NCBI GenBank assembly: GCA_947303255.1 | Contig: CAMYXL010000006.1 | Location: 1-64,000, forward strand | DNA: 64,000 bases | DNA from: an uncultured Clostridia bacterium | Lineage (GTDB): Bacteria > Bacillota > Clostridia > Saccharofermentanales > Saccharofermentanaceae | Direction: 5' to 3' | Part shown: piece after piece, positions 59,790 through 64,000 of the stretch | How the letters are laid out: every line of letters starts with the position of its first letter | Position numbering within the stretch: position 1 is the first letter of the stretch | Translations under genes and position numbers: made by a program | The notes under the pieces: generated by a model | Told to the model about the DNA's origin: nothing | Seen by the model: the letters and a program-made list of their open reading frames with translations, nothing else | Databases searched by the model: none

Positions 59790-61454
59790 TCAGTTTCCCG
59801 GTTTGTAGCTGTCCTTAAGGGAAACGGCTCTGTTAAATACGAGATTATCAGATGTGAAATCCTTGTTGTCTGCGCAAAAGTATCCGAGTCTTAAGAACTG
59901 GAATCTGTCTTCCGGCTTAGCGTTCTTCAAGGAAGCTTCAACCTTAGCACCCTTAACGATCTCGAGTGAATCCGGATTGATGAAGTCGAGATAGTTACAA
60001 TCAGCAAGGTCAGGAGCTTCTACAGTGAAGAGTCTGTCATAAAGACGGATCTCAGCATCAAGAGCTGTAGCAGCATCTACCCAGTGGATAGTTGACTTGA
60101 TCTTTCTTCCGTCAGCTGTGTTTCCGCCTCTTGATTCTTCATCGAAAGTAGCATGTACAGCGATAACGTTACCGTCAGCATCTTTGTCACAGCCTACACA
60201 CTTAACAACGTAAGCACTCTTAAGACGGACTTCATTACCAGGGAACAAACGGAAATATTTCTTCTCAGGTACTTCCATGAAATCTTCAGCTTCGATCCAA
60301 AGTTCTCTGGAGAATGTGATCTCACGCTTTCCTGTCTCTGGCTTTTCAGGATTGTTCTCAACTTCGAAAGTCTCACTCTTTCCCTCAGGGTAGTTATCAA
60401 GAATGAGCTTAACAGGATGAACAACACCCATTACACGCTGAGCGTTTGTATTAAGATCTTCACGCAGGCAGTACTCGAGGAATGCGAAATCAACAACAGC
60501 ATTAACCTTGGATACGCCGTTACGTGCGTGGAAGGCACGGATAGACTCAGGTGTATAACCTCTACGGCGAAGTCCGCACAAAGTAGGCATACGAGGATCG
60601 TCCCAGCCTGCAACAAGACCTGACTCAACGAGGTTTCTGAGCTTACGCTTACTTAATACAGTATGTGTGATACCAAGTCTTGCGAACTCGATCTGACGTG
60701 GCTTGCAAGGAACGGATACATTATTGATTACCCAATCATAAAGAGGTCTGTGTGCCTCGAACTCGAGGGAACAGAGGGAGTGGGTGATACCCTCAAGAGC
60801 ATCCTCGATAGGATGAGCGAAGTCATACATCGGATAGATACACCACTTATTACCCTGACGGTGGTGTGGAATCCTGTTGATACGATAGATAACAGGGTCT
60901 CTCATGTTGAAGTTACCTGAAGCCAGGTCGATCTTAGCACGAAGTGTAAGCTTACCGTCCTCGAACTCTCCGTTCTTCATTCTCTCGAAAAGGTCCAGAC
61001 TCTCTTCGATAGGACGATCACGGAACGGGCTCTGTGCAGGTGTTGTCGTATCACCACGCATATCTTTCATCTGCTCAGGTGTGAGCTCACAAACATAAGC
61101 CAAGCCCTTCTTGATGAGTTCAACTGCGTACTCGTACATCTTGTCGAAGTAATCAGATGCATAGAAGAATCTGTCGTCCCAGTCGTGACCGAGCCAGTGG
61201 ATGTCTTCCTTAATAGCATCTACGTATTCTTCGTCTTCCTTTGTAGGGTTTGTATCATCCATACGAAGGTTACAAAGTCCGCCGTATTTCTCGGCTGTAC
61301 CAAAGTCGATCTCGAGAGCCTTTGCATGACCGATATGGAGATATCCGTTCGGCTCAGGAGGGAAACGGGTGTGTACTTTCTGTCCGTAACAACGTCCGCC
61401 TTCCTTAAGCTCTTCGTCTATGATTTCATGAATAAAATGCTTATATTCTTCCAT
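59790..61454 (-). CDS. glnS: glutaminyl-tRNA synthetase
   Basis: RFPPEPNGYLHIGHAKALEIDFG; WDDPRMPTLCGLRRRGYTPESIR; VLSKRKL. Confidence 0.96.
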   Translation of the reverse strand: MEEYKHFIHEIIDEELKEGGRCYGQKVHTRFPPEPNGYLHIGHAKALEIDFGTAEKYGGLCNLRMDDTNPTKEDEEYVDAIKEDIHWLGHDWDDRFFYASDYFDKMYEYAVELIKKGLAYVCELTPEQMKDMRGDTTTPAQSPFRDRPIEESLDLFERMKNGEFEDGKLTLRAKIDLASGNFNMRDPVIYRINRIPHHRQGNKWCIYPMYDFAHPIEDALEGITHSLCSLEFEAHRPLYDWVINNVSVPCKPRQIEFARLGITHTVLSKRKLRNLVESGLVAGWDDPRMPTLCGLRRRGYTPESIRAFHARNGVSKVNAVVDFAFLEYCLREDLNTNAQRVMGVVHPVKLILDNYPEGKSETFEVENNPEKPETGKREITFSRELWIEAEDFMEVPEKKYFRLFPGNEVRLKSAYVVKCVGCDKDADGNVIAVHATFDEESRGGNTADGRKIKSTIHWVDAATALDAEIRLYDRLFTVEAPDLADCNYLDFINPDSLEIVKGAKVEASLKNAKPEDRFQFLRLGYFCADNKDFTSDNLVFNRAVSLKDSYKPGN

Positions 61455-61457
61455 AAC

Positions 61458-62921
61458 TTAACTCCTCATAAGTCTTTCAAGTCCGATGTTGATCCTTCTA
61501 AGTGATTCGTCTTTACCGAGAAGGATAAGTACCTCAGCGCATCCTCCAGGTGTAACTGCAACTCCTGCAGCAGCGATTCTTACAGGCCACATTACAAGTG
61601 CGTTCTTCATCTCGTGCTCAGTAGCATATCCGGTAAGAAGTTCGCTTATTGCTTCTCTTGTCCAGTCGCATTGCTGGAGCTTAGGAACGATGTCCGTAAG
61701 GATAGCCTTGGATGAATCAAGAGTTGATTTACTTTTCTTATGCTCGAAAAGGCTTAAGTCAAAGTCCTCAAACTTTGTAAGGAACTCGAGCTTTTCAGGA
61801 AGCTGAGTAAATCTTGTAATACGAGGCTTCAAGATCTCCTCGAGCATAGCGTAGTTTGCTTCACCGATACCAAGCTGATCAAAGAACGGCTTAGCATGAG
61901 AGATAAATTCATCAAAACTCATATTTTTGATGTGCTCGGCATTGACCCACTCAAGCTTATCGTAATCGAAAACACTAGGGGACTTGGAGATGCCCTTAGG
62001 ATCGAAGTTCTTGATAAGCTCTTCCATCGTAAAGATCTCCTGGTTGTCAGATGGAGCCCATCCCAAAAGTGCGATGTAGTTGATGATCGCCTCAGGAAGG
62101 AAACCGTCATTTACGAGATCCATAAAGCCTGTGCTTCCGTGTCTCTTGGAAAGCTTGGAGATTACTTCGTTGCCTTCCTCGTCTACGGATTTACCCATGA
62201 TGAGCGGAAGATGCATGTATGTCGGGATCTCCCATCCGAAAGCCTCGTACAGAGCATTGTACTTAGGTGTTGAAGAAAGATACTCAGATCCTCTAACAAC
62301 GTGTGTGATACCCATGAGATGATCATCGATAACGTTAGCGAAGTTGTAAGTAGGGAAGCCGTCAGCCTTCAAGAGAACCTGGTCATCCATATCCTCGTTA
62401 GGAATGGAGATCTCACCGTAAACCAGGTCAGTATATGTGGAAACGCCTGTAAGAGGCATCTTCTGTCTGATAACGTAAGGTGTGCCCGCATCGAGATTCT
62501 TCTGGATCTCTTCAGCTGAGAGGTCACGGCAGTGACGGTCATAACCTGACTCGCTCTGCTCACGAAGTGCCTCGAGACGCTCCTTTGAGCAGAAGCATCT
62601 GTATGCTTTGCCCTCGTTAACGAGCTGCTCGGCATATGGCTTATATAATCCGAGTCTCTCACTTTGTACGTAAGGACCGAAATCACCGCCGATGTCCGGA
62701 CCTTCGTCATGTGTAAGGCCTGCGAGCTTCAAAGTATCATATATAACTTGTGTTGCACCTTCGACATAACGTTCTTGGTCTGTATCCTCGATCCTGAGGA
62801 CGAAAGTACCGTCTTCATGTTTTGCCGTCAAGAACTCATAAAGAGCTGTTCTCAGATTGCCTACATGCATGAATCCTGTAGGACTTGGTGCAAATCTTGT
62901 TCTGATCTTCATATGAATCAC
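61458..62921 (-). CDS. gltX: glutamyl-tRNA synthetase
   Basis: RFAPSPTGFMHVGNLRTALYEFL; ISKLSKRHGSTGFMDLVNDGFLPEA. Confidence 0.96.
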   Translation of the reverse strand: MIHMKIRTRFAPSPTGFMHVGNLRTALYEFLTAKHEDGTFVLRIEDTDQERYVEGATQVIYDTLKLAGLTHDEGPDIGGDFGPYVQSERLGLYKPYAEQLVNEGKAYRCFCSKERLEALREQSESGYDRHCRDLSAEEIQKNLDAGTPYVIRQKMPLTGVSTYTDLVYGEISIPNEDMDDQVLLKADGFPTYNFANVIDDHLMGITHVVRGSEYLSSTPKYNALYEAFGWEIPTYMHLPLIMGKSVDEEGNEVISKLSKRHGSTGFMDLVNDGFLPEAIINYIALLGWAPSDNQEIFTMEELIKNFDPKGISKSPSVFDYDKLEWVNAEHIKNMSFDEFISHAKPFFDQLGIGEANYAMLEEILKPRITRFTQLPEKLEFLTKFEDFDLSLFEHKKSKSTLDSSKAILTDIVPKLQQCDWTREAISELLTGYATEHEMKNALVMWPVRIAAAGVAVTPGGCAEVLILLGKDESLRRINIGLERLMRS

Positions 62922-62994: not shown

Positions 62995-64000
62995 ATGGAT
63001 AAATTGGAAATCAACAGACCTGCAGATTACTACTGCGGCAACGGTATTGCTTTTGAAGTCGTTGCTCCTTTTATTGTGCGTAAATCAGGTGAGAATACCC
63101 CTAAGATCATTATATGTTCCGATAGGGAAGTAAGCGGATATTACTATAACCGCTTTGAGGAGCAGTTCTTAAAGCTCGGCATTAAGCCGGTTCTCGTTTC
63201 TGTAGATGCAAGAACCAAGAACAAGGGACTTGTTTCTGCCGATCAGCTTTTCAAGGCACTTGTTGATTTTGATTTCAGATCAGAAGATTGGCTTATCGCA
63301 TTAGGCGGTGGCGGTGTTATTGACATCTGCGGATTTGTAGCGGCTGTATTTAACGGCGGTATCAATCTTCTTGCCGTACCTACAACTCTTAACTCCATGA
63401 TAGAAAGCGTTCTTTCTTCCAAAGCCTACCTTAATTCTTCAGGCCACAAAAACGAGATCTCTGTTGAGATCACGCCTTCCGTTTCCATCTTGGATCCTTT
63501 GTTTCTTAATACTGTTCCGCCTAAGGTCAGATCCAACGGTTATGCTTCCGTTATAAGACTTGCGCTTCTTTATGATCTTGATCTTCTGACAGGTATCGAA
63601 GGCAAAAAGGATTTCAGAGTTTTCGTAAACGATCTTTATAAGGCCAGGGTAGCGATTGAGGATAAAGATCCGCTTTTATTGACCCTTGGAGATGAGCTTG
63701 CTCTAAGTATCGAAAACTATTTCAGATTTATGAATTATTCCGAAGGTGAAGCACTTGCACTCAGTCTGCTCGCATCTGTAAAAGAGTCCAAGCGTGAGCC
63801 TTTGAAAAAGATATATGCGGCTTTGGGACTTCCTGTTAAACTTGAAGGCTGTACCGAGAAGATGATCGTAAAGACTCTTAATGATCAGTTTGAGCATAAG
63901 GGTTCAGTAAAGATCAAGATGGTAGACCTTGACGGCGGGAAATGGAATGTTTTCGAGTATGATATCGAAGATGCGATGAAGGTCCTTCAGAGCCGACTTA
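62995..64000 (+). CDS. 3-dehydroquinate synthase-like protein, divergent, 3' truncated by window edge
   Basis: Open frame from ATG 62995 to window end (not in track): MDKLEINRPADYYCGNG...LIALGGGGVIDICGFVAAVFNGGINLLAVPTTLNSM. Confidence 0.8.
   Translation, partial: MDKLEINRPADYYCGNGIAFEVVAPFIVRKSGENTPKIIICSDREVSGYYYNRFEEQFLKLGIKPVLVSVDARTKNKGLVSADQLFKALVDFDFRSEDWLIALGGGGVIDICGFVAAVFNGGINLLAVPTTLNSMIESVLSSKAYLNSSGHKNEISVEITPSVSILDPLFLNTVPPKVRSNGYASVIRLALLYDLDLLTGIEGKKDFRVFVNDLYKARVAIEDKDPLLLTLGDELALSIENYFRFMNYSEGEALALSLLASVKESKREPLKKIYAALGLPVKLEGCTEKMIVKTLNDQFEHKGSVKIKMVDLDGGKWNVFEYDIEDAMKVLQSRL

Follow-up and report, generated by a model that had tools for sequence, protein, structure and literature searches.

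Comparison of its sequence with those of its relatives strongly suggests that the AroB-like protein encoded at the 3' edge of the window (the whole stretch of DNA analysed, 64,000 nt) is a pseudoenzyme of the dehydroquinate synthase (DHQS), or sugar-phosphate cyclase, family. That it is not a DHQS is close to certain. An earlier note on this DNA had described it as a repurposed or pseudo-enzyme. Support for this reading comes from the missing metal, substrate and base residues, from a canonical aroB elsewhere in the genome and from the purifying selection acting on a clade that extends over two families.

Gene and family assignment

The open reading frame begins with the ATG at 62995 and contains no stop before the window ends, 335 residues later (Table 1). 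The earlier note had it running off the edge; when the 3' end was retrieved, the gene was found to overrun the window by 17 bases, with a TGA stop at 64015-64017 of the 66,990-base contig, giving a protein of 340 aa. There were zero Rfam matches within the 64,000 nt.

Table 1 Features of the AroB-like gene and its neighbours. Residues are numbered as in the window protein and counts refer to the 47 aligned orthologues
Feature	Position	Strand	Remarks
glnS-like gene	59790-61454		comes after the gltX-like gene
gltX-like glutamyl-tRNA synthetase, divergent neighbour	61458..62921	-	conserved family context, outside the pair
AroB-like CDS (putative pseudoenzyme)	62995..64000	+	335 of 340 aa inside window; stop beyond window
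K77, NAD-site Lys (GExxK position)	63223..63225	+	46/47 in clade
GGGGVID: G104-G106 and D110, NAD site	63304..63324	+	47/47
T130-T131, NAD site	63382..63387	+	T130 47/47
K152, NAD-site Lys	63448..63450	+	46/47
S185, Zn-ligand Glu position	63547..63549	+	free variation in clade: Q, R, S, P, A, T, D, E
D233, first Zn-ligand His position	63691..63693	+	varies in clade: D, N, S, Q, K, R, C, L, H
F243-R244-F245, conserved motif specific to clade	63721..63729	+	R244 47/47
E250, second Zn-ligand His position	63742..63744	+	varies in clade: E, H, P, S, D

The protein passed the cut-off of the Pfam DHQ_synthase family (PF01761; E = 9.8e-21, 74 bits, cut-off 24.2) and failed that of the NCBIfam aroB equivalog, which marks functional AroB (TIGR01357; E = 2.7e-30, 105.7 bits, cut-off 305). 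A profile of the AroB-like family matched DHQS structures with E = 2.7e-49, its relatives in the PDB being DHQSs. These matches bear out the DHQS fold signature that had been read from the letters. Judged in this way, the AroB-like protein is a DHQS homologue that falls within the DHQS fold family but outside functional AroB. An AroB (5eks) was also the top Foldseek match of a weak AlphaFold model of the protein (pLDDT 59.8; E = 1.7e-13, TM 0.41). The structure predictions were built from only four and three sequences (pLDDT 59.8 and 49.9) and therefore nothing is asserted at the level of the pocket.

Other members of the superfamily were less similar. 2-Deoxy-scyllo-inosose synthase (2gru), the EEVS ValA (4p53) and DDGS (5tpr) were matched by both sequence and fold search, but with scores below that of AroB, and unlike the AroB-like protein they keep the metal site, having been solved with Zn or Co. 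The AroB-related putative phospholyase family TIGR04425 showed weak similarity, 76 bits, which fails its cut-off of 400. Glycerol-1-phosphate and glycerol dehydrogenases (Fe-ADH, PF00465) belong to the same superfamily and share the NAD domain; the PF00465 score was 33.3 bits (cut-off 31.3), a much weaker match than that to DHQS, and retention of Fe-ADH-type metal ligands is not expected. Membership of TIGR04425 or of the glycerol-1-phosphate or glycerol dehydrogenases was rejected, the scores lying far under cut-off.

Active-site residues

Residues were mapped by aligning 47 AroB-like orthologues with 23 canonical AroBs, and the canonical residues are given in the numbering of the A. nidulans DHQS. 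The Glu/His/His zinc ligands, which the earlier note had reported missing, are all replaced in the window protein (E194 by S185, H271 by D233 and H287 by E250). The motif replacements that it had quoted were correct to the letter; they line up with the motifs of canonical AroB, and six residues are deleted just ahead of the NFGH motif. The substrate and base set has gone as well: R130 is replaced by G, K197 and K250 by R, R264 by P, N268 by T, H275 by L and K356 by F, and E260 is absent, as it sits in the deletion. D146 is replaced by E. K152 and N162 (A. nidulans numbering) are present in the window protein, yet they are variable among the orthologues.

All three zinc ligands are gone in 37 of the 47 orthologues; one or two His are left in nine, and a single orthologue, from genome G181, has the complete set. 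The earlier note had also allowed for metal ligands conserved at shifted positions. No His is conserved across the 47 orthologues and therefore there is no sign of shifted ligands or of an alternative metal site; with all three ligand positions varying freely, this possibility was rejected. It is thus hardly credible that the protein still works with displaced ligands, whether as a DHQ synthase or as some other metal-dependent cyclase. The retained fold and NAD site and the one basal relative with E/H/H would be in its favour, but E260, R264, N268, H275 and K356 are all lost and a canonical aroB is present.

The NAD-site set (GGGxxxD, PT[TS], the K of GExxK and the K of GKN), on the other hand, is kept in 46-47 of the 47 orthologues (98-100%). 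As the NAD site is kept and the metal and substrate sites are lost, it can be argued that the protein still binds NAD(H), and not DAHP; NAD(H) binding is considered probable.

Other residues have become newly conserved in the clade: R44, L146-N147, F243-R244-F245 and Y248, and also E252. The polar residues among these (R44, N147, R244, Y248 and E252) would equally suit a new enzyme. The main rival explanation is neofunctionalisation: the protein would be an NAD-dependent oxidoreductase or lyase that needs no metal, has a new active site made up of R244, Y248 and E252 and acts on a small molecule, perhaps an envelope precursor. The related dehydroquinate-synthase-like/Fe-ADH superfamily does include metal-free members, the NAD site is retained, R244 is invariant in the clade and N147, Y248 and E252 are conserved. 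However, no His is conserved, there are few candidates for catalytic residues, and the catalytic residues of the partner protein described below have also gone, which is a better fit to a non-catalytic module. A new enzyme is considered unlikely, though not strongly so.

Canonical aroB in the same genome

The earlier note had proposed a search for a second, canonical aroB. One was found on contig C38 (4436-5461) within a complete shikimate operon, where its neighbours, identified by eye from sequence, resemble DAHP synthase, a TyrA-like dehydrogenase, AroA, AroC, PheA, an AroE-AroK fusion and AroQ. The presence of a canonical aroB and the full pathway in the genome makes the paralogue dispensable for DHQ synthesis. 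Compared with AroB (TIGR01357; PF01761; PDB 5eks, 3okf, 1dqs), the AroB-like protein is alike in its fold as judged by sequence profile, its NAD-site residues, its length and its general motif order. It is unlike AroB in that the zinc, substrate and base residues are replaced and six residues deleted ahead of NFGH, and in that its gene lies outside the aro operon and has a lipoprotein gene as partner.

DHQS is a dimer, and the paralogue might instead be a regulatory subunit of canonical AroB, forming inactive or modulating heterodimers. It is common for a pseudoenzyme to regulate an active paralogue (PMC10211241), and the AroB-like gene and canonical aroB occur together in the 22 genus genomes with the paralogue. 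Against this, the window protein is only about 26% identical to its own AroB, and the AroB-like gene was outside the aro operon in all loci seen, being coupled to the lipoprotein gene instead. This minor alternative seems distinctly improbable.

Distribution, phylogeny and selection

AroB-like orthologues were found by profile search in about 116 of the 188 genomes of the order (78 of the 85 genus genomes, 29 more of family f1 and nine of a second family, f3), a tally made by hand in which weaker matches, at or below about 173 bits, were counted as canonical AroBs. The gene is missing from seven genus genomes, which are 64-88% complete. None of the 375 genomes from outside the order (of 391 class genomes) contained it; scores there went no higher than 228 bits, and the top three matches were canonical AroBs. 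A scan of the genome contigs gave three relatives only. Within these samples the AroB-like clade is, by profile search, confined to one order of Clostridia.

In a tree made by a quick method, with long branches flagged, the AroB-like proteins form one clade (SH-aLRT 100) that tracks taxonomy, with f3 basal and f1 nested. The ligand triplets along the clade are EHH (G181, basal), QHH, QLH and RQH, then QKE, QRP, QKS and SDE (window). The zinc ligands appear to have been lost stepwise, the basal relative still having Glu/His/His. With the metal site intact in a basal member and missing in its descendants, the clade offers a natural series for the change from enzyme to non-enzyme. The G181 relative (L134:5935-6975, family f3), in which E/H/H is kept, has no six-residue deletion, and is a possible intermediate form.

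The dN/dS of the AroB-like gene was 0.02-0.18, similar to that of aroB in matched species pairs, 0.04-0.12; these figures are approximate because many of the dS values are near or above 1. The AroB-like frame is open and full-length across the clade. A decaying pseudogene copy of aroB, to which the lost catalytic residues might point, is next to impossible given this frame, the invariant residues and the synteny conserved over two families; the dN/dS values and invariant sites refute it.

Two marks of a pseudoenzyme, the loss of catalytic motifs and continued selection, were found, and the AroB-like protein resembles the class as reviewed in keeping its fold (PMC10211241). The roles described there are allosteric regulation, signal integration, scaffolding and competition, and migrated catalytic residues are possible in pseudoenzymes generally (PMC10211241). 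No example of a DHQS-family pseudoenzyme was found in that review or in the open-access literature searched. Pseudoenzymes as such are already known; what appears to be undescribed in this literature is one of the DHQS family that is under selection.

The M28-like partner

The next gene, on the same strand, encodes an M28-peptidase-like lipoprotein and overlaps the AroB-like gene or lies <=20 nt from it in 28 of 28 loci (genus and f3). Most further f1 and f3 loci likewise have it immediately after the AroB-like gene, at distances of -38 to +78 nt as measured from mechanically set ORF starts. G181 departs from this pattern, its M28-like gene being nearby but on the opposite strand, beyond another gene. 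The outer context varies, with divergent gltX-glnS in most of f1 and other genes in f3. The seven incomplete genus genomes that have no AroB-like gene have no M28-like gene either. Order-wide, the partner is present in 178 of 188 genomes and in all 30 genera, and in families f2 and f4 it occurs without the AroB-like gene.

The partner passed the cut-off of Peptidase family M28 (PF04389; 57.2 bits, cut-off 21.3). Its HYD and DNASG motifs are recognisable and its lipobox Cys is invariant in a 28-row alignment. Unlike that family, it has FGAGx or similar in place of the catalytic FGAEE. Of the partner proteins read, all but L044 have Gly, Ser, Ala or Asn instead of the first Glu of AEE, the base; the second Glu is left only in a few f3 partners, and both are found together in none. 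At the position of the last M28 His, the window genus has Tyr (one member has Phe), and several other lineages retain the His. Catalytic residues are missing from the AroB-like and M28-like proteins alike, and neither member of the pair has the complete catalytic set of its family.

Possible function

The strong selection on both proteins makes a new job probable, and the tight coupling of the AroB-like gene with that of an exported lipoprotein indicates an envelope-linked role. The AroB-like protein should be found in the cytosol and the lipoprotein at the outer membrane face, however, and for this reason the coupling of the genes does not show contact between the proteins.

On balance, and by a small measure, a non-catalytic sensor or scaffold is the favoured role. 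The cytosolic AroB-like protein would bind NAD(H) and make no dehydroquinate, while its altered active site, near the invariant Phe-Arg-Phe motif, may take a different ligand or partner. It would then do its work non-catalytically, responding to NAD(H) as a sensor or serving as a scaffold, and through it an envelope module containing the M28-like lipoprotein could be altered in amount, assembly or activity. The presence of the partner without the AroB-like gene in f2 and f4 counts against a sensor or scaffold. A wider proposal, that catalytically disabled homologues of S11 DD-carboxypeptidase, AroB and M28 peptidase, three unrelated enzymes, make up a single conserved envelope module and that its exported proteins are informed of the NAD redox state by the cytosolic AroB-like one, is rather improbable.

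Similarity-based annotation may call these genes 'aroB' and 'M28 peptidase', misleading pathway reconstruction. Known models do little to explain why a cytosolic and an exported protein, both catalytically disabled, should form a conserved pair; the pair sits in a lineage of gut Clostridia, an anaerobic order.

Other genes were seen repeatedly in these neighbourhoods. A protein of ~140 aa (L003:5217-5639; contig C6:65216-65638, - strand) is conserved near the pair in many f1 loci and some f3 loci, and has sub-threshold similarity only, to the GH127 middle domain. In families f2 and f3 and in genus g13 of f1, the M28-like or the AroB-like gene often has a divergent Peptidase_S11 gene, DD-carboxypeptidase-like, next to it (for example L133:3353-4837, L139:3853-5334 and L120:7209-8609, with 16 others). 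None of these 19 copies has an intact SxxK, the nucleophile Ser usually being Ala, Val or Gly. In the window genome the S11 match is limited to a canonical DacA-like protein (C68). In f2 and f3 (L138-L157) the M28-like gene often precedes genes that, named by eye, look like nfeD, stomatin/SPFH, hemW, hrcA, grpE and dnaK, hinting at an ancestral membrane quality-control neighbourhood.
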